From assembly GCF_000025725.1 (NCBI RefSeq), contig NC_013943.1:2790001-2854000 (forward strand): 64,000 nt of DNA. The letters are read 5' to 3'. A model generated the notes under the pieces. It saw only the letters and a program-made list of their open reading frames with translations, was not told where the DNA came from and searched no databases. The stretch is from Denitrovibrio acetiphilus DSM 12809 (lineage in GTDB: Bacteria; Chrysiogenota; Deferribacteres; Deferribacterales; Geovibrionaceae). The first letter of the stretch is position 1, and every line of letters starts with the position of its first letter. Of the stretch, positions 33,124 to 56,989 are shown piece by piece. The translations under genes were made by a program, and so were the position numbers.

Positions 33124-33921
33124 CTATACAACACCCAGTCCTTCTATACTTGCGCTGAGACTATCCAAATTCCTAACGATATTTGCCTCAATCGAAATAG
33201 GCTTCACTTTGCTGCTATAGTGGTGGCTCAAAATGATATTAACAAGCTTTTCTTTTAAATTTACAGGGAAGTCTTTTAAGTCACATACCTTGTTTAAAAA
33301 TAATTCAGCCCCCATAGTGACATGACCAATTTTACGCCCTCTATCTGTCATGAACATATCATACCCTTCAACCTTGTAACACAGAGCCTTGCCTATATCA
33401 TGCAGAAACAGCCCTAACAGAAGAGTACTTTTATCAATATCATACTTAAACAAACTGCTCTCACACAAACTCAAGCCAAACTCCATAGCCTCCACCGTAT
33501 GAACCAAAAGACCTGACATATGAGCATGGTGGCTGTTCAAGCTAGCAGGGACAAGAAAAAAACTGCTTATAATATCTGGCTCCCTGTAAATACTCATGAA
33601 TACTTCATGACAGTTATCCTCACTAATGTACTTAATGATTTCATGAAACCTTGTAGTATAATCTACATACAACTGTACAAAACTGATCATCAGCCTTTGT
33701 ACGCTAATGAAAGACTTACCGTCGTTTACCATTCTAAAGCCATAAAGACTAACGGAGTCAGTTTGATCCAAGATTTTAAGACAATGAGCTACATCATTAT
33801 AGCAATAGGCTATTTCTGCCCCTTGTTCCCCTTCAACAATAATCCTCAGATATTCAGCACCGTTTTTACTTATCCTAAGCGTTCTATCAATTACCTTAAA
33901 GTCTCCTAAAAATTTATTCAT
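33124..33921 (-). CDS. OB-fold/HD-domain phosphohydrolase, YhaM-like
   Basis: A 265-residue protein. An OB-like N-terminal part (residues about 1-85) is followed by an HD domain with HHAHMSGLLVHTVEAM, LFLHDIGKA and KIGHVTMGAELF, and a late HH pair (ILSHHY). This layout matches YhaM-type 3'-5' exoribonucleases and relaxase-associated HD proteins. Start behind AAGGAG; it overlaps the integrase end by 8 bp, so the two are co-translated. Its role in the mobile module is unknown. Confidence 0.75.
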   Translation of the reverse strand: MNKFLGDFKVIDRTLRISKNGAEYLRIIVEGEQGAEIAYCYNDVAHCLKILDQTDSVSLYGFRMVNDGKSFISVQRLMISFVQLYVDYTTRFHEIIKYISEDNCHEVFMSIYREPDIISSFFLVPASLNSHHAHMSGLLVHTVEAMEFGLSLCESSLFKYDIDKSTLLLGLFLHDIGKALCYKVEGYDMFMTDRGRKIGHVTMGAELFLNKVCDLKDFPVNLKEKLVNIILSHHYSSKVKPISIEANIVRNLDSLSASIEGLGVV

Positions 33922-35074
33922 TATCCTCTCCTTTAATATTTGAATATATGCCACCAATTATTGAGCCGTCTTTTCTCTCTAGGCTTGGAATATACCGAGT
34001 GTACGTTGTTAAAGTTGTTTTAAGGTTTGAGTGCCCCAACATACGGGAAACCCATAAGATATCCTCACCGTTTTTAATCGCCATAGATGCGAAAGTGTGC
34101 CTAAGCTGATACGCTGGGCGAGATACTATATTTTTCAGCTTTAGTACCCTGTGGTACTTTTGCCTGAAATTTTCCCAACAGATTCTTCGATTAAATTCAT
34201 TTACAAAAACGTATTCACTATCAATACCTTTATCTAGTTGCTGTAGTAGCAGAACTTCCAGAGGCTCAGTCATATCGATATCCCTGACACTGCTATCTGT
34301 TTTCAGAAGTGTTTCTTCACCAAGGACAAAACCTTCACGTATTAATATTTTTCTATTTTCCCAATCGATCTTATCCCACTTCAACCCGACAACTTCGTTC
34401 GGGCGACAGCCGGAAAATGCAAGGAAGGCCACAAAACTCTCATATGCAGGATACTTTTCAGCAAAGCCAACTAGTAATCTAGCTAGCTCTTCTTGGTTGA
34501 AGGGTTTAATATCTACCTTCTCGTTTCGGAGGTATTTTACTTTCTTGAACGGTGACTCTTTCAGATGACCCTCTTCAACAACTTCGTTAAAGAATGAACG
34601 TACCGAACGGAGCTTTCTATTAACCACAACATTGCGGTTAACCTTTGACATCACTGTCATCATCATACGAATATCTTTTTCTGTGATATCACCAAGAAGC
34701 TTATGTCCAATATAAGGCGATATGTGATTCCGATGAAAAGAGAGCATCGTCCGCCTTGTATTTTTTGCTATATGAGTCTTATGGTCGATCCACTCCAGAT
34801 ACAGCACATCAAATGTTGCCGTCAGGAACCTGTCAACCTCCAATTCTTCCTTAGGCTTTTGAAACAATCCAAGCCCCGGAAATATCTGTTTAAAGTCGAC
34901 TTCTCCGAGTCCAAGCTTCTCTCCTTTGATGGCACCATCCAGCAAGTTAATTTTTGCTTCGAGTATTGCTCTATTATGAGCTGTGTTGCTCAGACCAAGA
35001 TATACTCGCTTCCTTTTCCCTCTGTACGAGAAGTCTATATAAAGAACGTCTTTATCAACTCTTATAGATGCCAT
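33914..35074 (-). CDS. int: Tyrosine-type site-specific integrase
   Basis: A 386-residue phage-like integrase. The N-terminal arm- and core-binding regions are followed by the catalytic domain with Arg in SGCRPNEVVGLKW, HxxR represented by QLRHTF, the LGHS motif and the nucleophile in TTYTRYIP. All catalytic positions are present, apart from Gln in place of the first His. It probably integrated part of this island. It overlaps the excisionase-like gene by one base and the HD gene by 8 bp. No tRNA or att core could be identified nearby. Confidence 0.88.
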   Translation of the reverse strand: MASIRVDKDVLYIDFSYRGKRKRVYLGLSNTAHNRAILEAKINLLDGAIKGEKLGLGEVDFKQIFPGLGLFQKPKEELEVDRFLTATFDVLYLEWIDHKTHIAKNTRRTMLSFHRNHISPYIGHKLLGDITEKDIRMMMTVMSKVNRNVVVNRKLRSVRSFFNEVVEEGHLKESPFKKVKYLRNEKVDIKPFNQEELARLLVGFAEKYPAYESFVAFLAFSGCRPNEVVGLKWDKIDWENRKILIREGFVLGEETLLKTDSSVRDIDMTEPLEVLLLQQLDKGIDSEYVFVNEFNRRICWENFRQKYHRVLKLKNIVSRPAYQLRHTFASMAIKNGEDILWVSRMLGHSNLKTTLTTYTRYIPSLERKDGSIIGGIYSNIKGEDNE

Positions 35075-35382
35075 TATGCACTCCTTAAGTGACCAGCGAA
35101 GTTCTTGCTCAGATAGCTTCTACATGCTGACCACTTGCAGATGATCTTGCCCTCTACTTTGAAGTAATGCACTCCTTCCATAAGCCTGCCTCTGCTGATC
35201 AGCTTTCTTGTGGCTGAATCTGAGTACGGCCAGTCTTTATGCTCACCAATTTGCTTAATGGTTATAAACTCCGCATCATCCGCATTTGCCTCAGCCGAGA
35301 AATTAGACTCGATTTTCTCAAGCTTACATTTCATCTCATGGATTGTTGAAACCAGTTCATCCAGTGTTTGCTCCAGAAACAT
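35074..35382 (-). CDS. Excisionase-like DNA-binding protein
   Basis: A 102-residue protein: an N-terminal coiled coil (about residues 1-28), then a winged-helix segment ITIKQIGEHKDWPYSDSATRKLISRGRL and HYFKVEGKIICKWSACRSYL, typical of excisionase/MerR-like binding domains. Sitting directly before the integrase, it is the natural recombination directionality factor. It is divergent from a small regulator across three palindromic sites. Confidence 0.7.
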   Translation of the reverse strand: MFLEQTLDELVSTIHEMKCKLEKIESNFSAEANADDAEFITIKQIGEHKDWPYSDSATRKLISRGRLMEGVHYFKVEGKIICKWSACRSYLSKNFAGHLRSA

Positions 35383-35404
35383 AACGACCTCCTTTTATCG
35401 TGTA

Positions 35405-35480
35405 TCGGAATTCCGACTGCCATAAAGAGAAGATATTACGGAATTCCGATTATGTCAAGCATAAAAAATCGGTATTCCGA
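35405..35480. promoter_or_regulatory. Three-operator regulatory switch
   Basis: Three palindromes lie between the divergent excisionase-like and small regulator genes: TCGGAATTCCGA (35405-35416), CGGAATTCCG (35439-35448) and TCGGTATTCCGA (35469-35480). Centres are 33 and 31 bp apart, about three helical turns, so dimers would bind on one DNA face. The layout resembles the operator region of a temperate phage. Confidence 0.75.
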
Positions 35481-35503
35481 ATTTGATTGATTTTTGATTT
35501 GAG

Positions 35504-35752
35504 ATGTGTGACTATAATGGCATGAAAGATGCGCACTATATTGTAAAAATAAAGCCTGAATATGTTGATGAAATTAAGAAAAAATTCAACACCACAACTC
35601 TTGGCAAAGCACTTAATTTTGATACCGCTCATAAATTACTAAATGGTAATGCCAATATTAATCTAAAAAACTTCTGTAAATTATGTGAACTGATGGAATG
35701 GGACTTACCTGAATATCTTGAAATACAAATTGAAAGCGACCAAAATAACTAG
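35504..35752 (+). CDS. Small Cro/CI-like regulator
   Basis: An 82-residue protein with a likely helix-turn-helix (LGKALNFDTAHKLLNGNANINLKNFCKLCELMEW), similar in plan to small Xre-type proteins. No clear ribosome site; a second ATG at 35522 is an alternative start. It faces the excisionase-integrase operon across three palindromes, so it probably represses that operon and itself. Confidence 0.6.
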   Translation: MCDYNGMKDAHYIVKIKPEYVDEIKKKFNTTTLGKALNFDTAHKLLNGNANINLKNFCKLCELMEWDLPEYLEIQIESDQNN

Positions 35753-38700: not shown

Positions 38701-38922
38701 GTCGGAGGCAGGAAAAAGTTCCAACTGGCGGATTATGGTTTCTATCTCTTCACTGGTTATGCTTTCACCTGAATATCTATCTGACAGATAAGCTCTGAGG
38801 TCATCTTTGATAATTACATCCGACAGTTCACGTGCAATATTCTCACCCGGGACATACTCGTAACCTTTCTGCCCTAAGAGCTCAATAATTGCCTTCTCTA
38901 GTTTGTCTTCAGTGAATTTCAT
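35782..38922 (-). CDS. hsdR: Type I restriction enzyme, R subunit
   Basis: A 1046-residue HsdR. The N-terminal nuclease domain has PDGILYINGLPLVVFEFKSA (D...ExK). The translocase follows with Walker A GATGCGKS near residue 295, DEAH as CISDEAHRSQ, and helicase motif III in GFTGTP. The C-terminal part is helical. It cuts DNA after long translocation when hemimethylation is absent. It is the last gene of the operon and is separated from hsdS by three inserted genes; about 85 bp follow the last of these. Confidence 0.95.
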   Translation of the reverse strand: MKFTEDKLEKAIIELLGQKGYEYVPGENIARELSDVIIKDDLRAYLSDRYSGESITSEEIETIIRQLELFPASDLYETNKTIIRMISDGFSFKREDRTKKDLFIQLLDYSEEDRNIYKVVNQLEIVGYEKRIPDGILYINGLPLVVFEFKSAIREEATVHDAFIQLTVRYRRDIPELFKYNAFCIISDGVNNKAGSFFAPYEFYYSWRKITGDESIEKDGIDSLFTMINGMFDKDRLREIVRNFIYFPDSSSREEKVLCRYPQYYAATKLYKNILKQRRPHGDGKGGTYFGATGCGKSFTMLFLTRLLMKSLDFSSPTIVLITDRTDLDDQLSGQFTGGKKYIGDENVISVESRQHLRDLLKGRDSGGVFLTTIHKFTEDTELLTDRSNVICISDEAHRSQVNLDQKIKITENGVRKTYGFAKYLHDSLPNATYVGFTGTPIDATLDVFGEVVDAYTMNESVQDEITVRIVYEGRAAKVLLDNSKLKEIEEYYNKCAEEGASDYQIEESKKATAQMNSILGDPDRIKAIAVDFVEHYEKRLEEGSTVKGKAMFVCSNRQIAYMLYKEIVALRPSWAEVRVCEEGVELSEKEQKEIKPMERIKMIMTRGKDDPKELYDMLGSKDYRKELDRQFKNGKSNFKIAIVVDMWLTGFDVPFLDTMYIDKPVQRHSLIQTISRVNRKYEGKEKGLVVDYIGIKSQMNMALAIYSKADQSNIEEIEQSIVVVKDHLDLLSKIFHKFNTIPYFQGSALEQLHCLNMAAEFVQVTQELEKRFMYLVKRLKAAYDICCGSDAFSQAERDLIHFYLAVRSIVFKLTKGDAPDTAQMNAVVTKMIKEALQSDGVEEILKLGEDQGQEIDIFDDNYMAKIDKIKLPNTKIKLLQQLLTKAINDFKKINKMKGTDFSKKFKALVDKYNERKEDSILVSSVLEDFTDEIIDLYNALKKEKESFNEMGIDFEEKAFYDILKALAIKYDFTYPEDKLLALAKEVKQVVDDKAKYTDWSQRTDIKAELKADLVVLLAENDYPPVDRDEVYKEIFEQAENFKKYR

Positions 38923-39006
38923 GTTCTATCCTTATCAACAGCTTATATGCCGTACTTTCTATTTCTAGTACCGAGGATGGTATTGCTCATCTTAATGTCG
39001 ATTAAT

Positions 39007-41034
39007 TTATATTAAAAGCTCTGGTGGCACGGGATGAATCAGCCCACGTTTGCGCCATCGATTTCTATTTACTAACGAATCAAACTCTACCCCATTTGAA
39101 AGTATAAGGTCATCTGCATGATCGGTAACAATGATCTGTGGACAAAAACCATTTTGTTGCTCAATCTTATTGCAGTATATAGATAACTGGCTAAACAGGT
39201 TTTCTACCGCTTGAATATCTTCGTCGACAGGTCGATCATTTTTTGTTCGTTGCTCCTTTTCCTGTTTTTTTTGTTCATCAAAGGATTCAGAATCATCACG
39301 ATTGAAGTTTGGAAAATACACCTGTGTTGGCTGATCTAAAAAGAGGAGTGACGGTATTGAACATTTGTCACCCAATTGGACAAAGTATTCATGCAATGCT
39401 AGAAAAAGAGTCACATGGCTATATAACCAATTTGCACCGCTTCCCATTGACCTTAAATAAATTTCTTCATTCTTCGGCGTTAAGTGATAGAGGTCAAATG
39501 TTTCAAAAGAAAAATGTAGGTTTATTGGTTTGTAGCTGTCTTCAAACTCAAAATGGCTACCGATTTCAGCCATATATTCATTGACCTTTTTAGAAGCATT
39601 TTCTAACTCTTTTTGTACATCGTATTTTTTTAAGTCTTTGTTGATATCATTAAGCTGTTTGTTTCGTGCTTCGATTTGCTTTTCAAGCTCAGAATCATCT
39701 GTCATATTAAGAGTATCGAGAAGCATAATTAACTTAGCCTTCTGCATCAAAATGCTTTCATACAGACTCTTTTTTTCTGTAAGTTGGTTTTCTGATTTTT
39801 CAATTTCTGTTATCTGATGGTTTAGTGTGGCTAACTCGCTTCGAACAATTTCAATGTTTCGATTTACATCAACTAACGATGATTCAAATTTTGCTTTTAT
39901 AGGACGTGCTTGTGCTAGATTTCCCGACACCTTGGTGATAGCTTGCTGTAGTTTTACGGCACTTTCTCGTAATGTATCTTTTTCTGTATGGCAAAATGGA
40001 CAGATTGAAGCAGAGATATAGACATTTTTGGGTGAACTAAACTGTTTTATATTACAAACAAAACTTTTTTCTTCTTGAATGTGTTTGTTTAATGATGCTG
40101 CATCTCTTTGCAACTTTCTTAGATCCGATGTTTTTTGAGTCCTCTCCAACTTTAACTTGTTATATCGTTGGCTAACAGCATCAGAATCATAAATAATTTC
40201 TTCTGATACAATAATTTTGTCAAGTTGATCCTGTGCATCTTGTGGATGGCGAAGTACTTGCTGCAAAGAGAGTGGTTCTTCTTTAAATCCCATAAGAGCA
40301 TACATTTGGCTCAAAACTGGGCCAATTCTTTCCTTGTACTTTTCAGCAGCACGTTTGTTCGTCTCTTTTTGACGTGCCAAACGCTTAACTTCTATACTTA
40401 GCCTTTCTTTCTCTTGTGACAAGTGAAAGTATTTTTGATCAACTAAGCCTAAAAATATCTTGGTATGATCAATTGCCTGGTCACGTTTTTCCTTTTCATC
40501 AAAACGGTAAAACAAAGCATGTTTATTAGCTACGAGATTCTGGTGCTGAAGTATAAATGATGAAAAGCTGCGTATTGATGGCGTTGCTGCTTTAGCATTA
40601 GACCGTCTATTGGCTCTAGCAGCTAGCGATTCATCAACATCATCTATATCCAGGAAAAACTCTCTTAAGTGTTTCTTGAACTCATCTAAAGGACGAAAAT
40701 AGTTACTACTGAAGTAACCGCGATCAATATCCTCAGGATTAAACGATTCAACGCGACGAAAAAAAGCTTTATTTGTGATTTCAGGATTGCGAGCGATAAC
40801 CATATCTTGATCATTAATAGAAAGAGCAACATAATAAATAGCGGCGCAATCGGTAATAATGCCCTTCGGAATGGTATTTTCACGACTGCCGAAGCAGTAA
40901 TCAAAGATTTCAATTAGGGCACTTTTACCCGTCGAGGATTTACCCGTAACAACATTTAGACCCTTTTTAAAACTAACAGGGTGTTTTATCCCATGTTTTT
41001 CAATAACGCCAATTTCATAAATTAATGTTCTCAT
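39007..41034 (-). CDS. ABC-3C system ATPase (DUF3732-like)
   Basis: A 675-residue SMC-like ABC ATPase. Walker A is GKSSTGKSAL near residue 35. Two long coiled coils flank a CPFC zinc-hook-like tip near residue 343. The signature MGSGANW and Walker B LLFLDQP follow near residue 560, and VTDHADD is the H-loop region. This matches the DUF3732 type in ABC three-component conflict systems. It overlaps the small middle gene by 4 bp (ATGA), so the three genes are translationally coupled. Confidence 0.85.
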   Translation of the reverse strand: MRTLIYEIGVIEKHGIKHPVSFKKGLNVVTGKSSTGKSALIEIFDYCFGSRENTIPKGIITDCAAIYYVALSINDQDMVIARNPEITNKAFFRRVESFNPEDIDRGYFSSNYFRPLDEFKKHLREFFLDIDDVDESLAARANRRSNAKAATPSIRSFSSFILQHQNLVANKHALFYRFDEKEKRDQAIDHTKIFLGLVDQKYFHLSQEKERLSIEVKRLARQKETNKRAAEKYKERIGPVLSQMYALMGFKEEPLSLQQVLRHPQDAQDQLDKIIVSEEIIYDSDAVSQRYNKLKLERTQKTSDLRKLQRDAASLNKHIQEEKSFVCNIKQFSSPKNVYISASICPFCHTEKDTLRESAVKLQQAITKVSGNLAQARPIKAKFESSLVDVNRNIEIVRSELATLNHQITEIEKSENQLTEKKSLYESILMQKAKLIMLLDTLNMTDDSELEKQIEARNKQLNDINKDLKKYDVQKELENASKKVNEYMAEIGSHFEFEDSYKPINLHFSFETFDLYHLTPKNEEIYLRSMGSGANWLYSHVTLFLALHEYFVQLGDKCSIPSLLFLDQPTQVYFPNFNRDDSESFDEQKKQEKEQRTKNDRPVDEDIQAVENLFSQLSIYCNKIEQQNGFCPQIIVTDHADDLILSNGVEFDSLVNRNRWRKRGLIHPVPPELLI

Positions 41035-41483
41035 CTTGGTTTCACTCCTAAAAACGCATAAATTTCGACCACAGAGTGACCTTTGAATAATTTACCTAAC
41101 TGTTCAGCTCTTTTTTGATTGATGCATGTTGAATCAGATTTATCACATGCACTAATAGATAGATTTTGTTCGTTTACGGATAACCAGTCATTTATCAAAC
41201 AATAATTAATGCACTGTTCTGTTAATTCTTGAAATTCGTCGATTCGTTCTTGTAGATCATATAGTTTTGTGCGATCCTCGAAGATCGACCACATAGAGCT
41301 TCTAATATTAGAATTGTGTATTTTTTGACCAAAGAAAGGGTGACTGCATAGCGGTATCACCAAAGAAGCAAGTAAAAGATTATTCTCTGATTCGTCTAAT
41401 GTAGCGTAAAACGAACTAAGATATGCCCCATATTCGAACGGGTTGTACTTAAGCTCATATAATGTTTCAATAATACTACTCAT
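41031..41483 (-). CDS. ABC-3C middle component
   Basis: A 150-residue helical protein beginning MSSIIETLYELKYNPFEYGAYLSSFY, with no catalytic motif. The size, position between the nuclease-like gene and the ABC ATPase, and general pattern match the middle components of ABC-3C systems, which link sensor and effector. Start is the ATG behind GGAAGG; it overlaps the upstream gene by 8 bp. The family call rests more on context than on motifs. Confidence 0.7.
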   Translation of the reverse strand: MSSIIETLYELKYNPFEYGAYLSSFYATLDESENNLLLASLVIPLCSHPFFGQKIHNSNIRSSMWSIFEDRTKLYDLQERIDEFQELTEQCINYCLINDWLSVNEQNLSISACDKSDSTCINQKRAEQLGKLFKGHSVVEIYAFLGVKPR

Positions 41484-42609
41484 TATCAACCTTCCATTTT
41501 AAGTCACGCTCTTCATCATCCATAGCATCGTGAATTAGACCATTCTTGTATTCAAGTGGAGGTATATCATTACCCATATTCAGTGGTTGCTCTCCTATGG
41601 TCTTGTTATAAAGCAATTTTGAGCTTTTAATTGGATCAGTTGCTTCAAGTTTTGCACTTGAATAGGCGAGCTTATATTTTTTGACCAATTGGTTTTGGTA
41701 ATTTATTGTCTTATCTTTATAGAGAGGGTACTCATCCAGCTGTTCAAAAAGTGAGTTTTGTAATTCAAGCCAATTGCCTACAGCTTCAGGAATCATTTCG
41801 TGGTGCTCAATCTCATTAATCTTTTGAACAAAAGCTCTGTCATTATGCTGTTCTACATCCTGTTCAGAAGCTTCAAATCCATGAAATACGGGAAAGGAGA
41901 ATTCCTTTTTACACAGCAAAGAGGTCAATTCTTCGCACTTCGCAACAAATTCTTGATATTTGATGCTCCAAGACTGTTGAGTTGCCTGTGCATATACAAA
42001 GCCAATAAGTCCATACAAGTAGCTTTTTAGGTTATTTTTGGGAATGCCTATCGGTTTTGAAAGTATTTGTTTTTCCAATTCGTCACCATTATCAGCTTGC
42101 GTATATAATGTGACCTTGCCAAGGATATTTTTTAGAAATAATTTATCTGCCGCCATGACTTCTTTTTGTAATTTAATGATTGCAGAAGGTTCTTTAGCAT
42201 TTAACTGAGCTTTAGTTCGTTCAGCAAAAATAGTTTCTAGTATTTCCAGACGTTTTTGTGCGCTAACTAAGTTCCACTCTTTTAGGCGAGTTGTGGCACC
42301 GAATACTTGTGTAGTGTGAAGTACTAAAGCTCCATATTGAGTGTGATCAAACTCTGGTGCTAACCAATTTTTTAAAGTCTTCCAAAGGTTTTCGTGATGA
42401 TCAGTTAATGGAGCTGCATAATTTTTAACTTCAGTCTGTGTTGACTGCGCAGTGCTTGATGAAAGCAAACTTACATCCCCATCTCTTTCAAACCAAATAG
42501 ACTGCCCATCTTCAAGCGAAAAGCACTTGTCTAGACCTATCAATACTTGATAATGAAAAGCTAAAGCTGTTGTTAATGTGGCATTTTTGGTTTTAGTTAT
42601 CTCACTCAT
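41476..42609 (-). CDS. ABC-3C C-terminal component with PD-(D/E)XK-like N-terminus
   Basis: A 377-residue protein. Residues about 40-67 read IWFERDGDVSL, then QTEVKNY: the acidic-strand-ExK layout of a PD-(D/E)XK nuclease. The remaining 300 residues are helical and resemble the C-terminal scaffold domain of ABC-3C effectors. It is the first gene of the three-gene set and probably the DNA-cutting effector. Start at an ATG (or the GTG just before) behind GGAG. Confidence 0.72.
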   Translation of the reverse strand: MSEITKTKNATLTTALAFHYQVLIGLDKCFSLEDGQSIWFERDGDVSLLSSSTAQSTQTEVKNYAAPLTDHHENLWKTLKNWLAPEFDHTQYGALVLHTTQVFGATTRLKEWNLVSAQKRLEILETIFAERTKAQLNAKEPSAIIKLQKEVMAADKLFLKNILGKVTLYTQADNGDELEKQILSKPIGIPKNNLKSYLYGLIGFVYAQATQQSWSIKYQEFVAKCEELTSLLCKKEFSFPVFHGFEASEQDVEQHNDRAFVQKINEIEHHEMIPEAVGNWLELQNSLFEQLDEYPLYKDKTINYQNQLVKKYKLAYSSAKLEATDPIKSSKLLYNKTIGEQPLNMGNDIPPLEYKNGLIHDAMDDEERDLKWKVDNE

Positions 42610-42732
42610 CACGTGGTCTCCAATTCATTACTTACACCATAGTTTGGCAATGTACTGTTGAGTACCGTGTAAGAATACGATAAGCCCATCCCTCAACAGT
42701 TCCTAATTGGTATTGAATGGTTTCGGCAGCAA

Positions 42733-44022
42733 TTAGCATTTAGTTGCCTCCGCTTTGATCATTTTCTGAAGCAAGAGTATACGAGCCTTCAAAAGATATT
42801 CGCTTTGAGCGGATAAATTTTCCTTGTAGCAAATAAGGCTATCGGTAATCTCCTCGAAGCTTTTCATAGAATCGTTCTTGGGGATCAATATCTCAAATTC
42901 TTCAATATCACCTTTTGTAATTGCTTGTCTTGTTGATCCAGCTTCGCTGGATCCAAGTAGCTTTTGCTTGTAGATGGCAGAGCAGAGCGTAAATAGCAGG
43001 TAGCTTGATGACAATTTTTCGGGTTCCACCCTAACGATTGATACGTGCTGATTCACTCTAGCAGGTAATACATTAGAAGGAACTCTACAGCATCGAGCAA
43101 CAGATACGCCCGTAATATTGAGAAGAACGTCTTTCTCCTTAACTTCAACATTATCCAGCTTAGTAGCCTGGGTACTATCTATAAATGCGAGATCCCTATA
43201 TTGGAAATTGTAATCATGCACGTTAAGGCTTCGAATGAGAGAGATTCCAGATTTTTTGTAGGCAGATTTCCCTCCGCATGGAGTTGAGCCACTTCCTATT
43301 TTTGTGCATCTATTACTGAGCGTATCGTATTTCCATTCATCTGGAACATCTTGGTCTAGGTCATTATTCCATACCATTTTACCGCCGGAAGATCTGTATG
43401 GTTTGCCTTCCAGTTCTGGTTTGCCGATGGACTGTGCATATTCGGCTGTAATGGGAAATTCAAAATCTACGAACCAGTGTTTATAAAGAGTCTGTGCAGT
43501 TTCCTCAAGCTTTTGGCTGAGCTGTTCATTCAGCTTTATTCGATTAACAATTGTGTTGTATTCATCCACTATCTGCTGCTGCTTATCAGGATTAGGTACA
43601 GGCAGCTCAATATTACAAAAATCTTCCCACTCAAGACTCCCTCTTACACCACCAACAGCATAAAAACACGCTTCTCTGTCAAACTCTGATCTGCTCATCC
43701 ACATCATTAAATATTCAGGTAATAATTCACAGTCGTCTATTATCTTAAAAACTGGATACGCTTGAGATATAATTGCCTCATCAAAATCAGTTAACAAAGC
43801 TACTGGAATTTTTCCATCTCTTCTGACCTGCATTAAGCTACATGCAAATTGACCTTTCTTGATAATCTTATATTTGCTCATATCTGAGCCCACAATATTG
43901 GCTACTGAAGGGATAAATATTTTATCCACAGTAAGCCCAAGTAATGTATTAACTTTTAAATCGTTATTACGCTTATCTACAAGCTGGATGTAGTTTCCAA
44001 TCTTCTTATAGTTCGATTTCAT
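42733..44022 (-). CDS. hsdS: Type I restriction enzyme, S subunit
   Basis: A 429-residue specificity subunit with two target-recognition domains (about residues 1-140 and 225-370), each followed by a helical spacer (central: VDEYNTIVNRIKLNEQLSQKLEETAQTLYKHWFVDF; C-terminal: LSAQSEYLLKARILLLQKM). Each domain reads half of a bipartite site that cannot be predicted here. It overlaps hsdM by 17 bp. Confidence 0.93.
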   Translation of the reverse strand: MKSNYKKIGNYIQLVDKRNNDLKVNTLLGLTVDKIFIPSVANIVGSDMSKYKIIKKGQFACSLMQVRRDGKIPVALLTDFDEAIISQAYPVFKIIDDCELLPEYLMMWMSRSEFDREACFYAVGGVRGSLEWEDFCNIELPVPNPDKQQQIVDEYNTIVNRIKLNEQLSQKLEETAQTLYKHWFVDFEFPITAEYAQSIGKPELEGKPYRSSGGKMVWNNDLDQDVPDEWKYDTLSNRCTKIGSGSTPCGGKSAYKKSGISLIRSLNVHDYNFQYRDLAFIDSTQATKLDNVEVKEKDVLLNITGVSVARCCRVPSNVLPARVNQHVSIVRVEPEKLSSSYLLFTLCSAIYKQKLLGSSEAGSTRQAITKGDIEEFEILIPKNDSMKSFEEITDSLICYKENLSAQSEYLLKARILLLQKMIKAEATKC

Positions 44023-45571
44023 AACCTAACTCTTTGAAAACTTTAAGCAATTCAGCTTTTGATTTTTCTTCTCCTTTCAGAAGCTCAGTAAAATCATCCT
44101 TAAGACTCCTCATCTTTTCATCAAAATCTATATCCTCATCCCTGTTAACGAACTCAATATATTTACTAGGGACGAGAGAGAAGTCTTTTGCTTTGATCTC
44201 ATCAAAAGTTGCTGAATAACAGTATTCGGGTACATTATCAAATTCGTCATGAAATTGTTTTGTCTGCCATGTATGGAATGTTCGTGCAAATCTTTTTATA
44301 TGGTCTTCGTGAAACTGAATGTATTTTTTCTCAAAGGGCTCGCCTTCCTGACGTAAATCCATAAACAGAACTTCTTTCTCTCTACTCCTATACTCTCTAG
44401 TTGAATCAGGAATATTAACAACTCGCTCTTTTTTATTCTTGTTTATTATCCAGAGTGTTACACTAATATTTGTTGTATAAAACATGTTTTGAGGCAGAAT
44501 TATTATCGCCTCAACAAGGTTATTCTCTATTATCTTCTTACGTATTTTATACTCGTCTCCACCACCAGACAGAGCACCATTCGCAAGAATGAAGCCAGCA
44601 ACACCGTTTTCAGAAAGCTTAGAAACCATATGAAGGATCCAGCCATAGTTAGCATTTCCAACAGGAGGAGTCTCATATCCATTCCAGCGAGGGTCACTTG
44701 TCAGTTCGGTACCTGCACGCCAATCTTTTTGATTAAAAGGTGGGTTAGCCATAATATAATCTGCTTTCAGGTCTGGGAACTGGTCATTAAGAAATGTATC
44801 TTTACCGATCTCACCAAGGTTTGCAGAAATCCCCCTGATAGCAAGGTTCATCTTAGCCAGTTTATATGTTGCCGCTGTTAGTTCCTGACCGTAGATAGAA
44901 ACATCTTTCCTGTTGCCTTTGTGGGCATCGATGAACTTCATCGACTGGACAAACATACCGCCAGAACCACAGCAGGGGTCATATATCTTTCCTTTGTAAG
45001 GTTCGATCATCTCAGCTATAAGATTTACTATACTCTTCGGAGTATAGAATTCTCCTTTCCCTTTACCTTCTGCCAGAGCAAATTTACTGAGAAAGTATTC
45101 ATATACCTTGCCAACGATATCCCGCTCTTTGTCTTTCAGAGTGTCTATGTTGCTTATGGTGTCAATGAGTGCGGCAAGCTTGCTTGTCTCAAGCCCCAGT
45201 CGGGAGAAGTAATTATCTGGAAGAGCTCCTTTAAGAGCTGCATTATTCTTTTCAACTGTGGAAAGAGCAGTATCAACTATCAGAGCTATATTGCTTTGTT
45301 TAGAGTTCTTTTTGATATGACTCCAGCGTGACTCCTCTGGCAGATAAAACACATTCCTCATGGTATAAAACTCCACCATGTCGGTGTACTTTTCTTTGCC
45401 CTCAGCTATCAGTTCTTTCTTTCGCTCTTCAAATTTATCACTGGCAAATTTCAGGAATATCAGACTCAATACCACATGCTTATACTCCGAAGGTTCTACA
45501 CTCCCTCGAAGCTTATTAGCTGAATCCCATAAGATTTCTTCATCTCTTTTGCCGTTTTTCTGTTTTGCCAT
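44006..45571 (-). CDS. hsdM: Type I DNA methyltransferase, M subunit
   Basis: A 521-residue N6-adenine methyltransferase. Motif I is DPCCGSGGMF near residue 197 and motif IV is NPPFNQKDW near residue 277. The N-terminal helical region (LWDSANKLRGSVEPSEYKHVVLSLIFLKFASD) is typical of HsdM. It is the first gene of the RM operon, 128 bp after the recombinase trio in the same direction. Confidence 0.95.
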   Translation of the reverse strand: MAKQKNGKRDEEILWDSANKLRGSVEPSEYKHVVLSLIFLKFASDKFEERKKELIAEGKEKYTDMVEFYTMRNVFYLPEESRWSHIKKNSKQSNIALIVDTALSTVEKNNAALKGALPDNYFSRLGLETSKLAALIDTISNIDTLKDKERDIVGKVYEYFLSKFALAEGKGKGEFYTPKSIVNLIAEMIEPYKGKIYDPCCGSGGMFVQSMKFIDAHKGNRKDVSIYGQELTAATYKLAKMNLAIRGISANLGEIGKDTFLNDQFPDLKADYIMANPPFNQKDWRAGTELTSDPRWNGYETPPVGNANYGWILHMVSKLSENGVAGFILANGALSGGGDEYKIRKKIIENNLVEAIIILPQNMFYTTNISVTLWIINKNKKERVVNIPDSTREYRSREKEVLFMDLRQEGEPFEKKYIQFHEDHIKRFARTFHTWQTKQFHDEFDNVPEYCYSATFDEIKAKDFSLVPSKYIEFVNRDEDIDFDEKMRSLKDDFTELLKGEEKSKAELLKVFKELGYEIEL

Positions 45572-45698: not shown

Positions 45699-47993
45699 CT
45701 ATAATTTTGATATTAATTCTATCACATTTTTTTTAAGCCGCATACCATGTGGTTTTTGTGTAAAAGTCTCTCTATGAAGGGTATTATCATTTACTCCTTG
45801 TATTAAATTACATATTTGCTTTGATGTCATATACTGTCTTCCATTATCAGCTTCTCTGATAAAATACTCCGCAAAGAAATCAAGCGTATGGATATACCTC
45901 TCTATCGTTGTTTCCGGCCCGGCATGCCCCATAAACTTTGCAAGATTATGGAATAGTGTAGACCGGCGATAACCCGTACCAATTAACTTCTGAAACCTAC
46001 CCAAGTCGCTTGGAGGTACATGTAAACTTCTAAAACCTGTAGGAAGGTATTTCTTAGCCCCCGGGTAGTAAATTAGCATCAGCTCAGTCGCCAGCCATGA
46101 ACAACAGCAATGCCTCAACGAATGAAATGAAAGTGTTTTTTCATTAAACATCTTCTTTAGCAGAGTGGCTATATTCTGTATATATGGCGAGAGATCTTGT
46201 GCGATCAGTTTGTAGTTAAGCTTACCCTTCTTTTCACCAAGACGTTTATTCCAATAATTTTTTATTATTTTTCTATGGTGTTCAGGAACCATATGCTCGA
46301 TAGGGACATTGCGCCTGCCTGCTGCTGTCTTTGATTTTGCTACTCTTATAATAGCCTCTATGTCAAAATTGAAACTGTGCAAATGCAGTTTTCCTATTTC
46401 AAAACGACGCAATCCACAATAGAAACCTAAAATGCATAACAATTCTATAATCTTATATGCTTCTGCTGTTTCATGCTTTTTAATCTCTTCTAAACACATG
46501 TCTAACTCGAGTGGAGTTATAAGGAGCGGCTTAACATTAGAAGATGTACCCTCGAGCTCCGGAGACTTCAGAAACTCATTTATGATACTTTTATCATCAG
46601 TCCGTTTCGGCAGATACCAAGCCAAAAACGCTTTAACCTTACGAGTCATATTACCGCCGGAGTGTTTTCGCACATCACGATCTACCTGAACAATATCTAC
46701 AAATAAACTATAAAGCTCATCAAAATCGTACTCACTTAAGGGTGTCTCGTCACAAACCTCCATAAGTAACGAACTAAACTTAATATAGTATGTATAAATA
46801 GTTGATACCGCTTTTTTACTGCTGAGCAAATCCATCACATACGCGACAAGCAAACGGAATGTTTCATTACCATTTAGCAACTCTTCATTCCCCTCAATAA
46901 ACCCCTTCATTTCACTCTTAATCTCCTGTTTCCTTTTCTTAGGATTAAGTATTTTCTGGACTTCTTTCATCGCTTTGACATATTGATTACTCATGCTCTG
47001 CTTAACTGGTGGAGCAAACTTCGTTTCTTCTGGTTCATCCTCTGGAACGTCATTCATACTAACACGTTTTTTTCTGTACTCAGCCCAGTTCATATGCTCA
47101 AACCTACTCTGTTTTACTGAGTAATAGTTGACCGACTTGCTTAATACCGTAGAGATCACAGGAGGAATCTTTTCTGAATTACATATTCTGGCTACCTGTA
47201 TGAGTTTAGAATAACTCATCTTTTTATCGTCAAAAAGCTTTACAAGCCACCTGCGGAAGTCATCTGATGTAAAATCTGAAAATGGACATTCATCTTTGTT
47301 TTGTTTCAATATGATTGCCAGCAGAACCTGAGCTGTTAAAGACAAAGGGACTCGTACGGATCTATTTTCAAGTTTCTTATCTTCTGCTGTTATCAGATAC
47401 GTATGCTCATATTTTATCTCATATGGCTTGTCCTCGAACTGGCTTCTTTTGACAACCCTAAGTGACTTTATGAGATTTGGAAATGTAACAAACGACTGAG
47501 TCACAATTGCAAATGCAAATGCACAGCAAAGTTCATTGTAGTAATCATTCTGCTCATAAATCTCAGCAGCAAGATATCTCGTTGCGAATTCTTTGCTGAT
47601 CTTCAAATACTTATTTCTTTGCTGAACAGCATCCTCACTAAATTTAAAAGATAATTCCCGAACCTCCTTCTTCGGTATCGAAGGTATTTTGCAGTCCAAA
47701 ATATCTTGTTCATTCAGATATTTTATAAAAGAGCACAGAACCCTTTGCGTGATATTATCTGCCTCATTTTCGTTGAGGATTTTCATTTTTTTGATGTACT
47801 TTCGGAGGCGATCTTCCTCTATTGTAACTGGCAACTTTTTATTAGTCACAAGAGGGTAAAGCACCTCATCAATTTTATGGAGAGTATCTATTTCTATCTC
47901 AATATTCTTATTCCGTTTACTATTCTGCTCACATTCCATACGCACACACAAAGCGGCGTGGTAATCACGTACACAATCAATATATATATTCAT
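45699..47993 (-). CDS. Large tyrosine recombinase (trio gene 3)
   Basis: A 764-residue protein with a tyrosine recombinase domain in its C-terminal third: Arg in GFYCGLRRFEIGKL near residue 527, HSLRH near residue 625, MGHAGPE near residue 687 and the nucleophile in ERYIHTLD near residue 698. All catalytic residues are present. The first 400 residues are unlike standard integrases. It is last in a tightly packed three-gene operon (4-bp overlap). It resembles in plan the multi-recombinase modules of Tn554-like, RIT or Gamma-Mobile-Trio elements, but sizes and order do not let me assign it. Confidence 0.82.
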   Translation of the reverse strand: MNIYIDCVRDYHAALCVRMECEQNSKRNKNIEIEIDTLHKIDEVLYPLVTNKKLPVTIEEDRLRKYIKKMKILNENEADNITQRVLCSFIKYLNEQDILDCKIPSIPKKEVRELSFKFSEDAVQQRNKYLKISKEFATRYLAAEIYEQNDYYNELCCAFAFAIVTQSFVTFPNLIKSLRVVKRSQFEDKPYEIKYEHTYLITAEDKKLENRSVRVPLSLTAQVLLAIILKQNKDECPFSDFTSDDFRRWLVKLFDDKKMSYSKLIQVARICNSEKIPPVISTVLSKSVNYYSVKQSRFEHMNWAEYRKKRVSMNDVPEDEPEETKFAPPVKQSMSNQYVKAMKEVQKILNPKKRKQEIKSEMKGFIEGNEELLNGNETFRLLVAYVMDLLSSKKAVSTIYTYYIKFSSLLMEVCDETPLSEYDFDELYSLFVDIVQVDRDVRKHSGGNMTRKVKAFLAWYLPKRTDDKSIINEFLKSPELEGTSSNVKPLLITPLELDMCLEEIKKHETAEAYKIIELLCILGFYCGLRRFEIGKLHLHSFNFDIEAIIRVAKSKTAAGRRNVPIEHMVPEHHRKIIKNYWNKRLGEKKGKLNYKLIAQDLSPYIQNIATLLKKMFNEKTLSFHSLRHCCCSWLATELMLIYYPGAKKYLPTGFRSLHVPPSDLGRFQKLIGTGYRRSTLFHNLAKFMGHAGPETTIERYIHTLDFFAEYFIREADNGRQYMTSKQICNLIQGVNDNTLHRETFTQKPHGMRLKKNVIELISKL

Positions 47994-50086
47994 TTGATCA
48001 CCTCATATCCGCATTCCGCTAATAACTTGCTTTGCATTGTAATAATCTCTAACTGAACCTCCGGCATATCAGCAAATGAAAATATGTTATTCAGTTCAAT
48101 CCCATCAGTAACATGCCCAAGCCAGTAATTTGCAATCTCATAATCAAAGTTCTTTTGCATAAGATTTGTTCGCAAAAAGTGCCTGCAAAAGTTCATGACA
48201 ATGCAGTTCCTCTCAATGCCTATTCTGCTTAGATAGCGAGATTCAACTGTACCCTTGTCGTAATATCCAAGCTTATCCTTATGACCTAGATGATAAAGAA
48301 GATCAGTCAGCTCAAAATATTCATAAACAGGTGTTATATACCCTGCAATACTGACAGTTTCTCGATATCGTTTCAGTATTCTGAATTGTTCTTTTATGTC
48401 ATCACACAAATCTACAATTCTATGCTCTTGCTTTCTTTGGCTGTCTTTATCTCTCAAAATTACATGACTGAAATCTGACGCTATCAAAGATTTTGATTCC
48501 GACGCAATACGCCGCAGGGAGCTTGTAAGCTGCAGTCCTATATACGTATAGAATGAAAGGATATTGAGCTTTTCTTTTAGCTTAATTTCTGAGTAATACA
48601 GCTCTCGTATATTCTTAAAAATATATTGCATTGTCTCTACTTCTGGTACAGCTCTACTGCCATAATTTTCATTGTAAACACACGCTTGTTCTGGAAGCAT
48701 GGTAAGCTCTGTGAAACCAAGCCTATGCAGCAGCTCGGAAACAACATCTGCAAATCGATTCCCTATATATTCTGCTGAAATACGTGTGTAAAACGTCTGA
48801 GTAAAAGAAGTTTCTGCGAATGTATTTGAAATATACGCGATAGTCAGGTCATTCTGTCCGCAGACATCAGAAGCAAATGCTCTGAAAAATTTTCTGATTC
48901 GAGCCGGTGTAATGTGCGTGTAATTAATATGATTAAATGCATTGATATGCTCTTTTATATCATTCAAAGACAGCCTTTCTGGCAACTCTATGCTCTGTAC
49001 GAGTTCACATAAAAACGCTGGCAGTACAACTTTCACCTTAAGACGAGTGTTCTGACTATATCGCGACATGCTCTTAAAGCTCTTGCTATGATATCCTACT
49101 TTATGCAGATGAAACCAATAGTAGTCCTTGTCTTCACTTAGCTTTATGCTTCGATATTTATTACCACGTAATATCTTCGACCAGTCATCGACATCAACGC
49201 CACTCAAAGCCGAAAGTATAAGAAGAGCCGTGATAGGATGCTGCCTTCTTTGATAATCATCTAACAACTTTTTCATTTCATGAAGCTGAACGACATCATA
49301 GTCATAGATGCTTACAACTCGAGATTGACGAACGAACTGCGTGGTCTTTTCATAGAAATACTTCTTTACTTCAGATGTGGGACAATATGTCCACGCGGGT
49401 ACTATATAGTTTCTAACTGAGTTATCAGCTGATACTTCAACCTGTGAATGGCTTGCACTTAAGATTTGAAGATACGAATTATCTCCACCATGACTTTTGA
49501 TCCGAAAAAACTTACGAATCCTCTTGCCACAGATTCGAGTATAAGAGTTCCCCTCCTCCCAAGCATCATGCATTATTTTATCAAAGCGCTCTATATGCTT
49601 TTCATCTTGTTCTACGATCGTATCCAGCATGTCAGAAAAGATTATCTCGTGGATATTAATCACTTTTCCTGTCCTTTGCAGATATGCATCAGCACTTGCA
49701 ACAAATACACGGGCAGCCAATGAGGCATTATAAAATCGCTGGTGGATGTTATTGGGATACTGCTTATCGAAATCAACAAGTTTATGATGTATCTCATATG
49801 CGTAATACTGATAAGCTTCGTGCTGGCAAGCATCTATATGAAATCCAATCAGTATATTCTGATCAGACTTATTAAGCGTTTTCCCTACTTCGATAGAAGT
49901 AAAATGTTCATAAAGACTCGCCACATATTCAATTGAAATATCATCTAACTCGTCATCGTCAAATGACTCATGCAGCCAGTATATTATCGCTGGTAAAAGC
50001 TCATCGTAATTCTCTTTAGCAAGTGGAAGGGGGCACTGGATAAAATCCAGTGCCTCCATGATTCTTTTAGTGACTAGCTCTTGCAT
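47990..50086 (-). CDS. Recombinase-like protein lacking the catalytic tyrosine (trio gene 2)
   Basis: A 698-residue protein. The C-terminus keeps recombinase-like features: SSLRRIASE, NFCRHFLRTNLM near residue 635 and YWLGHV near residue 655. Where the nucleophile is expected the text reads NNIFSFADM, with Phe and no Tyr. It is probably a structural or regulatory partner of gene 3. Ribosome site GGGGTGAT; the upstream gene ends 4 bp before its ATG. Confidence 0.68.
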   Translation of the reverse strand: MQELVTKRIMEALDFIQCPLPLAKENYDELLPAIIYWLHESFDDDELDDISIEYVASLYEHFTSIEVGKTLNKSDQNILIGFHIDACQHEAYQYYAYEIHHKLVDFDKQYPNNIHQRFYNASLAARVFVASADAYLQRTGKVINIHEIIFSDMLDTIVEQDEKHIERFDKIMHDAWEEGNSYTRICGKRIRKFFRIKSHGGDNSYLQILSASHSQVEVSADNSVRNYIVPAWTYCPTSEVKKYFYEKTTQFVRQSRVVSIYDYDVVQLHEMKKLLDDYQRRQHPITALLILSALSGVDVDDWSKILRGNKYRSIKLSEDKDYYWFHLHKVGYHSKSFKSMSRYSQNTRLKVKVVLPAFLCELVQSIELPERLSLNDIKEHINAFNHINYTHITPARIRKFFRAFASDVCGQNDLTIAYISNTFAETSFTQTFYTRISAEYIGNRFADVVSELLHRLGFTELTMLPEQACVYNENYGSRAVPEVETMQYIFKNIRELYYSEIKLKEKLNILSFYTYIGLQLTSSLRRIASESKSLIASDFSHVILRDKDSQRKQEHRIVDLCDDIKEQFRILKRYRETVSIAGYITPVYEYFELTDLLYHLGHKDKLGYYDKGTVESRYLSRIGIERNCIVMNFCRHFLRTNLMQKNFDYEIANYWLGHVTDGIELNNIFSFADMPEVQLEIITMQSKLLAECGYEVIK

Positions 50087-50089
50087 ACA

Positions 50090-51109
50090 TCACCCCAAAA
50101 CCGGCATGATCGCATGCTTATAAAGCTTACTCTTTGTTTTTGCACATTTGTCACTACTTGCTACACAATAGCGTCCATCAAGCACAAACTTAAATTCCTC
50201 AACGCCAATATTTGCATGGAAAACCCCATTGTTTTTAGATATCGTTGTGCGATTTTCGGTTATATCACCCTTAGGGTTTTTGCTAAAAGTATTGACGATT
50301 CCCCGGTTAAGAGAATCATTCAGATTGATGTATATAATCAGAGAGCAAAGATCAAAACAGTAAAAGTTCTGGTTTTTGGCTACCATAAACGATGTCTTTT
50401 CGATAACGTTTGACGTATCTTCATATACTTTATATTTATCTCCATAAATAGGTTTGTAATTCAACAACTCCGCTGATCCATCAGTTATCAGCTCAAGCAG
50501 CCTGATACGCCCTGAGGAGTCAAAAGACACCTCAACTTCATCCCCATCAAGACATAGCCAGTGTGCCTTTAAGACAAAATCTGCAGTTTTATGCCGCTTT
50601 TTCTTCTTACCTTTGTCCTGCGCAAAGTTGAATATTGTCGCATGTTTGAAGATTGTAAGCATGTCAGCCACTTTCTCTTTAGTTGTAGCTCCGCTGTCCA
50701 TGAGTAGCATTGCACCTTTTGCAACATCACTTTTCCAAGCATGGCGGACGGTCTCTGCGAGCATGATATTGTAGAGTCCATTATTTGACAGAACCCTCCG
50801 GTACATGTTGTCAAATAAATCCCGCAAAATCAAAGATGCAACATCCTGTGCATCTACAGCCTCCATGATTCTTACACGAACCTTTTCAACACCAACTTTC
50901 AAAGCACATAAATATGTTGCTAATCCATACACCAGATAATAGCCCCTACTATTTTCATAAACAGTTAGCTGATGCGTAACATTACGAAGTTCAAAATCAG
51001 CTTTATCGACCATCGGGGCAAAAGTCAGCTTGTCAATATCTGACCAATACTTCTTATACTCATCTAGCTTTACATCAGCTAGCATCAATAGTTGTGTTCT
51101 AAACTTCAT
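50090..51109 (-). CDS. Unknown protein (trio gene 1)
   Basis: A 339-residue protein that I do not recognise. It is predicted cytoplasmic, alpha/beta, with a KGKKKKRHKT basic patch near residue 183 that could contact DNA. No recombinase motif is visible. The start at MKFRTQLL has GGTGGTG at a fair distance; an upstream in-frame start would add 16 residues. Its position as first gene of the operon suggests it helps the two recombinase-like proteins, perhaps in DNA recognition. Confidence 0.6.
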   Translation of the reverse strand: MKFRTQLLMLADVKLDEYKKYWSDIDKLTFAPMVDKADFELRNVTHQLTVYENSRGYYLVYGLATYLCALKVGVEKVRVRIMEAVDAQDVASLILRDLFDNMYRRVLSNNGLYNIMLAETVRHAWKSDVAKGAMLLMDSGATTKEKVADMLTIFKHATIFNFAQDKGKKKKRHKTADFVLKAHWLCLDGDEVEVSFDSSGRIRLLELITDGSAELLNYKPIYGDKYKVYEDTSNVIEKTSFMVAKNQNFYCFDLCSLIIYINLNDSLNRGIVNTFSKNPKGDITENRTTISKNNGVFHANIGVEEFKFVLDGRYCVASSDKCAKTKSKLYKHAIMPVLG

Positions 51110-51179
51110 AAAACACCACCACGCACCTATATACGTAATTTCTACATACAGCAACATTCGTATGCTCGTATTTATGCAC

Positions 51180-52872: not shown

Positions 52873-52939
52873 AGAAGAGGTGGTCCCAGAAATCTGTACA
52901 GTATGCTAAGGTGGAAAAAGCATATTGGAGGACCACACG

Positions 52940-53230
52940 ATGTCAAAAGCAAAACGTACCCGTTACTCAGCCGAGTTTAAATCAAAAGTAGCCCTTGAAG
53001 CTCTGCGAGAAGAGCTGACCTTATCGGAATTATCAGCCAAGTATAATGTTCATCCGAATCAGATTTCTAAATGGAAGAAAGAAGCCATCGAAGGGATGGC
53101 TACAATCTTTTCCAATAAGTCCAGCAAGTCGGAAGAAATATCAGAAGCAGAGATAAAGGATCTGCATGCAAAAATAGGACAACTGACGGTGGAACGAGAT
53201 TTTTTGCAACGAGCCTTCGGGAAACGGTAA
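52940..53230 (+). CDS. IS3-family transposase OrfA
   Basis: A 96-residue DNA-binding protein (TRYSAEFKSKVALEALREELTLSELSAKYNVHPNQISKWKKE) with a C-terminal coil (ISEAEIKDLHAKIGQLTVERDFL). The start is placed at the second of two in-frame ATG codons, behind GGAGG. Intact. Confidence 0.9.
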   Translation: MSKAKRTRYSAEFKSKVALEALREELTLSELSAKYNVHPNQISKWKKEAIEGMATIFSNKSSKSEEISEAEIKDLHAKIGQLTVERDFLQRAFGKR

Positions 53231-53250
53231 GTATTTCTCGGAGGAAGTTT

Positions 53251-54120: not shown

Positions 54121-54149
54121 AAACTGTGCAGGATATGGGGACCACCTCT

Positions 54150-55766: not shown

Positions 55767-55928
55767 AGAGTTTACTCACTAACATAATAGGTTATAGTAG
55801 CATCTTTTTTGTTCTAAAAGCAAACAGTCATAATAATGACGACCGACACGAAACTAAGGCCACATTTGGGCAGAAGGATTTTGGACACATTTGTAAGATA
55901 TTGATAAATTGACAGAATAAAATTTAAT

Positions 55929-56101: not shown

Positions 56102-56117
56102 TTGAATCGCCACTGAA

Positions 56118-56951: not shown

Positions 56952-56989
56952 AGCGTGGTCAGTTCGGTGTTCATAAATGAATGCGTACC

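Follow-up and report, generated by a model that had tools for sequence, protein, structure and literature searches.

A Lamassu Defense System in the hsdS-hsdR Junction of a Type I Restriction-Modification Operon of Denitrovibrio acetiphilus

Gene Organization of the Locus

In the genome of Denitrovibrio acetiphilus DSM 12809, a single contig of 3,222,077 bases, a type I restriction-modification operon carries three additional genes, lmuA, lmuC and lmuB, which are predicted to encode a Lamassu (ABC-3C) defense system. The locus was studied within a window, the whole stretch of DNA that was analyzed, of 64,000 nucleotides (NC_013943.1, positions 2,790,001-2,854,000), and all coordinates below are window positions unless another stretch is named. 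On the minus strand the genes follow one another as hsdM-hsdS-[lmuA-lmuC-lmuB]-hsdR (Table 1). All six open reading frames (ORFs) are long, intact and co-directional and contain the expected motifs, for which reason a frame artefact was rejected.

Within the trio the genes are tightly linked. As read from the sequence, lmuA and lmuC overlap by 8 bp, counted from the ATG start of lmuC at 41483 (the TTG further upstream, at 41489, could also serve as the start), lmuC and lmuB share the 4 bp ATGA, and hsdM and hsdS overlap by 17 bp; lmuA starts with GTG at 42612, with an alternative ATG three bases on, at 42609. The trio is more loosely joined to the hsd genes, lying 120 bp after hsdS and 84 bp before hsdR. 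No consensus promoter or terminator was found on the minus strand in either gap, which is weak evidence, as promoter matches are no commoner than in shuffled sequences and the scan also lists minus-strand promoter-like sites within hsdM and lmuB. Neither gap contains an unusually stable RNA fold (z -0.7 and -1.1, respectively), a 35-codon frame in the 120-bp junction has no convincing relatives, and no insertion footprint, in the form of a match to the relatives' upstream or downstream sequences, is visible in either junction. The GC content at third codon positions (GC3) is 0.30 in lmuABC, common to all three genes, compared with 0.37 in hsdM and hsdS and 0.45 in hsdR, as expected for a unit acquired apart from the operon.

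Identity of the Three Middle Genes

A preliminary description of this DNA, drawn up from the sequence alone, had proposed that a complete ABC-3C-type system, consisting of a nuclease-like first component, a middle component and a zinc-hook DUF3732 ABC ATPase, is nested in the type I operon with all genes in one direction and with the overlaps described above, and had called for profile searches of the three proteins. These searches bear the proposal out: all three proteins match the Lamassu models of PADLOC, LmuA over residues 10-367, LmuC and LmuB are in addition assigned by Pfam to MC3 and DUF3732, and none takes its identity from an unrelated family. LmuA has no match in Pfam. The range given in that description, 38922-45571, ends at the first base of hsdR and leaves hsdR itself (38922-35782) outside.

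LmuB contains a Walker A motif (GKSSTGKS), a zinc-hook motif (CPFC at 345) and a Walker B motif (LLFLDQP at 563) with Q in place of E, and its residues C345, P346, C348, D567 and Q568 are invariant in 12 sequences, comprising the window and 11 relatives. The zinc hook CPxC is a feature of many, not all, Lamassu members. ABC-3C systems have been placed in the Lamassu superfamily, for which both the zinc hook and the E-to-Q change in Walker B are described (PMC10586767). The LmuB family profile matches the Lamassu ATPases in the PDB at 3e-56 (9hqu) to 2e-51, and the match of the LmuC family profile to the LmuC chain of 9hqu is weak (2e-4).

For LmuA, the family profile also matches the solved LmuA chains weakly (6e-6 to 1e-4), followed by two unrelated isomerase chains (9e-4, 2e-3), and it is the fold of the modeled protein that decides over this weaker profile. 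An AlphaFold model built from 20 sequences (mean pLDDT 85, pTM 0.57) has as its top match 9hr5, the DNA-bound nuclease tetramer of Salmonella LmuA (Foldseek E 2e-13; Z 25.2). Residues 6-376 superpose with a root-mean-square deviation of 7.8 over 358 residues at approximately 16% identity, and the high deviation suggests two domains that are placed differently. Cap4 receptors are further matches of the N-terminal part (Z 11-12), and D46, E61 and K63, which do not vary between the window and 19 relatives, fit a PD-(D/E)XK site, an assignment made by eye. On the fold of its model, LmuA is a predicted Cap4-like nuclease-fold effector, and the PADLOC and fold matches extend over the ABC-3C C-terminal domain that is expected of LmuA proteins.

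Taken from these sequence and model matches, the trio is a complete Cap4-type Lamassu system with predicted anti-phage or anti-plasmid activity; the possibility that the three genes are unrelated to ABC-3C was rejected by the Pfam and PADLOC family matches. None of the three proteins matches the PrrC/RloC family in Pfam, NCBIfam or PADLOC at E values up to 1, and in place of an anticodon-nuclease domain fused to an ABC ATPase, the nuclease fold is found on a separate Lamassu-type protein.

The genes that surround the trio are also well recognized. HsdM, HsdS and HsdR are all present with intact motifs (NPPF in HsdM; PD...EFK, GATGCGKS and DEAH in HsdR), and hsdMSR is, judged from these features, an intact type I restriction-modification operon with predicted methylation and restriction activity.

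Table 1. Genes and junctions of the nested locus, in window positions.
Feature	Description	Position	Strand	Matches and remarks
hsdM	N6-adenine methyltransferase subunit, 521 aa	44006..45571	-	Pfam N6_Mtase 1e-103, HsdM_N 1.5e-23; NPPF motif
hsdS	specificity subunit, 429 aa	42733..44022	-	Pfam Methylase_S 6.5e-12 over two stretches; PADLOC Specificity_I 3e-76
hsdS-lmuA junction	120 bp	42613..42732	-	without consensus promoter or terminator on the minus strand
lmuA	predicted Cap4-like PD-(D/E)XK nuclease-fold effector, 378 aa	41476..42612	-	PADLOC LmuA 4.7e-41; fold match 9hr5
lmuC	middle component, 152 aa (TTG 41489) or 150 aa (ATG 41483)	41031..41489	-	Pfam MC3 2.4e-47; PADLOC LmuC 2.7e-19
lmuB	SMC/Rad50-like ABC ATPase, zinc hook, DUF3732, 675 aa	39007..41034	-	Pfam DUF3732 9.3e-60; PADLOC LmuB 8.7e-119
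lmuB-hsdR junction	84 bp	38923..39006	-	
hsdR	restriction/translocation subunit, 1046 aa	35782..38922	-	TIGR00348 1.7e-144 (above cut-off); PADLOC REase_I 1303 bits

The hsdS-hsdR Junction in Related Operons

The junction that holds the trio was compared among related operons. Below, L-numbers denote the locus stretches compared and G-numbers the genomes. The HsdR of the window served as query against 369 sampled genomes from the class that contains the Paraferrimonas genome G053, 394 from the order of that genome, 390 from the order to which the Acinetobacter genome G062 belongs, and plasmids. This yielded 59 stretches with an HsdR at least 60% identical, the window included, and the 50 with hsdM, an intact hsdS and hsdR were counted. 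Nine were left out, five with no hsdM on the stretch (L154, L166, L172, L189, L193) and four with a broken hsdS (L083, L112, L198, L205); L204 (HsdR 39-41%) and L206, the second type I locus of the window's own genome, are also uncounted. Five of ten plasmid records at 60-80% identity were taken in, whereas class-level matches at 34-35% (n = 4) and a partial second match in G630 were left out. From the 1114 E. coli genomes with a match, the chromosomal operons L111 and L112 alone were examined, L110 and L113 being hsdR remnants, and the E. coli search with a Klebsiella hsdR gave no match among the near matches.

In these 50 operons the hsdS-hsdR junction is either empty (16 operons, -4 to 260 bp) or occupied (34 operons, 799-9368 bp). 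Two near relatives of the window operon have an empty junction, measuring 10 bp in L079 (HsdR 70%, HsdM 75% identical) and -4 bp in L094 (77 and 74%). The window thus presents what is expected of an embedded system, namely a complete second system on the same strand between intact hsd genes, in an operon whose relatives have the junction empty. An extra gene is present between hsdM and hsdS in only four of the 50 operons, each of which also has an occupied hsdS-hsdR junction (discordant loci 30 versus 0), and all cargo ORFs of at least 150 amino acids are co-directional with hsdR in 30 of the 34 occupied slots; both figures are uncorrected for kinship.

These figures bear on one alternative, which is that Lamassu and the type I genes are chance neighbors in a defense island on a mobile element and that their nested order arose without selection. 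In its favor are the free variation of slot contents and the flanking genes (see below), with a phage-type integrase directly downstream and, directly upstream, a large integrase-like gene accompanied by two others; the position, however, is far from random, given the unequal filling of the two junctions (34 versus 4 of 50) and the shared direction of the cargo. We consider this alternative very unlikely.

A known or candidate defense gene occurs in 26 of the 34 occupied slots. Twenty-three were counted by direct PADLOC match, among them L099 with a weak (3e-9) and L180 with a partial match, and three (L171, L173, L176) through clustering with L098. The cargo includes, according to PADLOC, a CBASS cyclase with a four-transmembrane (4TM) effector in L082, PDC-M23 with a HamB-like helicase in L096, DRT4 in L186, HEC-01 in L190 and L167, and Mokosh in L194. 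Many slot occupants match the PDC and HEC models of PADLOC, which, in a preprint of Payne et al., reportedly represent genes embedded inside defense operons. The remaining eight slots have no counted PADLOC match (L080, L081, L161, L162, L169, L183, L184, L185); among these, L162 was searched with PADLOC on one of its seven ORFs and with Pfam on two, L183 was judged through its relative L184, and L185 contains a weak JetC match (6e-9) that was left uncounted.

Two families of slot genes deserve separate mention. A single gene of approximately 1,095 amino acids fills the slot of L183 (3388-6687) and of L184 (12802-16077), the L184 copy having no Pfam or PADLOC match and the L183 copy being its relative. 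A family of 286-287 amino acids is found in the slots of two Psychrobacter plasmids and of G630 (L080:11063-11923, L081:6180-7043, L170:15126-15989), and its L080 and L081 copies likewise match neither Pfam nor PADLOC. The slot genes of L080/L081/L170 and of L183/L184 are candidates for new defense genes.

Lamassu itself occupies one of the 50 slots, that of the window, and these data therefore indicate no preference of the slot for Lamassu. In an HsdR tree computed by a quick method, the window groups with L094 (empty), L082 (CBASS) and L096 (the PDC-M23 set) with a support of 98, so that four grouped operons have four different contents and the contents of the slot turn over. Since the content is variable and Lamassu is confined to the window, position alone points to a passenger slot and to no dedicated partnership: the hsdS-hsdR junction looks like a cargo slot and Lamassu like an exchangeable passenger.

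Relatives of the Lamassu Genes

An alignment of three LmuB sequences (two short peptide patterns) served to scan 84,980 species genomes for relatives of the trio, and 73 loci were returned, 43 of them with an LmuB at least 46% identical to that of the window. In 36 of the 43, no type I genes are present on the stretch examined, which indicates that Lamassu can do without the restriction-modification operon. In the other seven (L012, L013, L016, L017, L022, L027, L035), 9 bp separate the stop codon of an hsdS from the start of the trio. Six of these have enough flanking sequence to give the order hsdR, AAA ATPase, hsdM, hsdS, LmuA, LmuC, LmuB (Pfam was run on L013 only), and their type I system is a remote relative of the window's (HsdM 25-28% identity). 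In a quick LmuB tree, all seven fall in a set of 12 rows (support 95) that excludes the window, and six form a clade (support 100). From the different type I family, the different gene order and the LmuB tree, it follows that Lamassu became attached behind hsdS at least twice.

The preliminary description had further suggested a survey of related genomes for the order hsdS-ABC-3C-hsdR. Hidden Markov models (HMMs) of the hsd genes, made from these sequences, were applied to 77 Lamassu loci, namely the 73 from the scan together with L003, L004, L219 and L220. An hsdM is present on the examined stretch in 10 of them, and the order hsdS-LmuABC-hsdR in 0 of 77, several of the stretches being short; nesting as a conserved unit was accordingly rejected. 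The neighbors of the trio in L006 and L030 were rejected as type I genes (phage tail hub and WD40-like; UvrD helicase), and one neighbor in L028 resembles, by eye, another kind of DNA methyltransferase and does not match the hsd HMMs.

Among the genomes of the window's order and class, DUF3732 was found in 1 of 45 and an LmuB relative at 1e-30 in 1 of 47, both being the window's own, which points to horizontal arrival. In the 369 sampled genomes of the class of G053, DUF3732 is present in three: in G053 itself, the center of the sample, where it is linked to a type I system (L013), and at two other loci with no hsd genes on the stretch.

Two further loci show Lamassu and type I genes in other constellations. 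In L044 (68-17527), from a Desulfuromonadaceae metagenome-assembled genome, LmuABC lies between hsdR (PDB 3h1t match, 6e-299) and hsdM, several genes apart; an ORF after hsdM resembles a cut-down hsdS by eye, and PDB searches around this locus identified hsdR alone. The Paraferrimonas genome G053 holds both arrangements, hsdR-AAA-hsdM-hsdS-LmuABC in L013 and, in L099, a relative of the window operon whose hsdS-hsdR slot is taken by a PDDEXK_4 gene.

Proposed Mode of Action and Alternative Readings

We favor, with a probability of roughly 0.78, the reading that an independent Cap4-type Lamassu abortive-infection layer rides in the cargo slot of an intact type I operon. That Lamassu acts on its own is suggested by the many close relatives with no type I neighbor on the stretch and by the acceptance of unrelated systems in the slot. 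By analogy with solved Lamassu systems (reviewed in PMC12409362 and PMC12904381), the zinc-hook, SMC-like ATPase LmuB and LmuC would hold LmuA inactive, and the binding of DNA from phages or plasmids, at its ends or at unusual structures, would free it. Freed LmuA would then form a tetramer and cut DNA, and the infected cell would be stopped. The titles of the solved complexes describe corresponding states: 'LmuACB in nuclease sequestration state' (9hqu among them), 'LmuACB bound to DNA duplex' and 'LmuA nuclease tetramer bound to DNA duplex'.

The gene layout suggests that the passenger would be read from the hsd promoter, and from the position of lmuABC behind hsdM and hsdS it is plausible that all share one transcript. 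The slot may be used since insertion before hsdR would leave the upstream hsdM-hsdS pair undisturbed. Lamassu would form a second layer against DNA that restriction fails to stop, and this reading presumes neither physical nor signaling contact between the two.

Several observations weigh against this interpretation. The slot is not exclusively for defense: its occupants in L161 and L162 are not obviously defense genes, with a biosynthesis-like set of amino-acid- and sugar-type enzymes in L161 (3573-10314: SLOG/LDcluster4, M20 peptidase, asparagine synthase and glycosyltransferase) and a reversed gene set with a PAAR protein in L162. Most PDC families of PADLOC stem from a guilt-by-embedding study (PMC12988326), and since they are defined by embedding, PDC matches are no independent proof of a defense function. 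In the HsdR tree, the order inside the window's group is unresolved, and L082, L097 and L099 sit on long branches with unsure placement. Occupancy is also clustered on this tree, with at least 7 changes between empty and occupied versus 13.8 in shuffles; it is therefore partly inherited along lineages, and the 50 loci are not independent. Among the Lamassu relatives, several contigs are short, and some type I neighbors may be unseen. Finally, the repeated attachment of Lamassu 3' of hsdS amounts to more than nothing in favor of a functional link.

Such a link could take several forms. In a guard arrangement, which the preliminary description had raised in proposing a back-up for evaded or blocked restriction, the type I complex or its activity would keep Lamassu quiet, and phage anti-restriction proteins or a failure of restriction would release it. 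The classic precedent is prrC, which lies within EcoprrI and is kept silent by it (PMC3874165; PMC12707154), and genes of the RloC kind, with a zinc-hook ATPase, occur as inserts in Campylobacter type I loci, RloC having been proposed to act upon restriction alleviation (PMC2610378). The repeated attachment behind hsdS fits this idea as well. PrrC, however, is described as invariably linked to type Ic systems (PMC2610378), whereas 36 of the 43 Lamassu relatives have no type I genes on the stretch examined; for RloC itself, a link with a type I or III system is described in only 8 of 73 instances (PMC2610378). The slot carries unrelated systems equally well, and Lamassu has its own restraint on LmuA, if the title of 9hqu is followed. 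A guard of this kind appears to us very unlikely.

Alternatively, restriction could be the trigger, in that HsdR cleavage of unmodified DNA would make the ends that LmuB senses and Lamassu would finish the response. Structural work is cited as suggesting that Lamassu binds DNA ends (PMC12904381), LmuACB and LmuABC complexes have been solved with DNA, as their entry titles state, and RloC, likewise a Rad50-like ATPase with a zinc hook, reacts to double-strand breaks (PMC3874168). On the other hand, phages themselves supply DNA ends, a host whose own DNA was broken would run the risk of suicide, and most relatives have no adjacent type I system on the stretch examined, so that we attach very little probability to this trigger. 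A broader functional nesting, a two-step relay of cutting and then suicide in which LmuB would read either HsdR-made ends or an HsdR blocked by a phage inhibitor, we regard as unlikely; if it were true, the relay would be the reason why Lamassu has been attached behind hsdS repeatedly. RloC is the nearest precedent for a link of either the guard or the relay type.

The locus adds Lamassu to the passengers known between hsdS and hsdR. The comparison also puts figures on this slot for one HsdR family, 34 of 50 being filled and 16 empty, and covers related operons whose passengers differ. This constitutes a natural experiment, in which one kind of restriction operon carries an interchangeable second system, and makes it testable whether embedding reflects cooperation or shared transport and expression.

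Flanking Region and Possible Mobility

Directly upstream of hsdM and co-directional with it, positions 45699-51157 (minus strand) contain three large genes of 764, 698 and 355 amino acids. The first matches Phage_integrase (2e-8), the second and third belong to no convincing family, and the set may be a recombinase trio that moves the island. Just downstream of hsdR, in the interval 33914-35752, lie a phage-type integrase (Phage_integrase 1e-20), directly preceded by a small gene, and an opposite-strand gene that is helix-turn-helix-like by eye. A search for att repeats of an element gave nothing convincing, no near-identical DNA was found on plasmids, and comparison of the flanks for island borders gave scattered partial matches only.

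Further out, at 52925-57268, two gene pairs that appear by eye to encode IS3-type transposases flank a 549-amino-acid ORF resembling a histidine-kinase-type ATPase, for which PHROGs gave no match. The second type I locus of the same genome (L206, G000:C1:2712278) has an HsdM 47% identical to that of the window; between its hsdM and a gene resembling hsdR (34%) lie several ORFs, of which one is probably hsdS.

Comparison with Known Systems

The closest known counterpart of the trio is Lamassu type II or DdmABC, with which it shares the gene order A-C-B, the Cap4-type nuclease fold, the middle component and the zinc-hook ATPase with an E-to-Q Walker B (PMC10586767). It differs in that LmuA of the window is far from the solved LmuA and in that the trio is nested in a type I operon rather than standalone.

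PrrC/EcoprrI and RloC also place an ABC ATPase gene in or near a type I locus, and RloC likewise has a zinc hook. They are single-chain anticodon nucleases, whereas the window has a separate effector with a DNA-nuclease fold. A coupling of immunity and suicide genes through linkage of this kind was proposed in 2012 (PMC3506569).

With respect to position, DarTG2 of the enteropathogenic E. coli (EPEC) RRDM island is a complete second defense system between hsdS and hsdR, at a site that its authors term a potential recombination hotspot; in contrast to Lamassu, this passenger is a toxin-antitoxin system, with the regulator RptR upstream and an M48 peptidase downstream (PMC12255303). The region of EPEC E2348/69 examined here contains only an hsdR remnant at another site. 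TgvAB, in the type I cluster of VPI-2 of V. cholerae, is a two-gene defense system within such a cluster and differs in being a type IV restriction enzyme (PMC11411939). It is the nearest published test of cooperation in a nested system, and its outcome is mixed: TgvAB protected without HsdR nuclease activity, and tgvAB alone was 10-100-fold weaker than the whole cluster against several phages (PMC11411939).

A literature search, which did not extend to the embedding tables of Payne et al., brought up no publication describing Lamassu within a type I operon. Defense systems embedded in type I operons are already known from DarTG2 and TgvAB, and Lamassu as a passenger is an addition to them.

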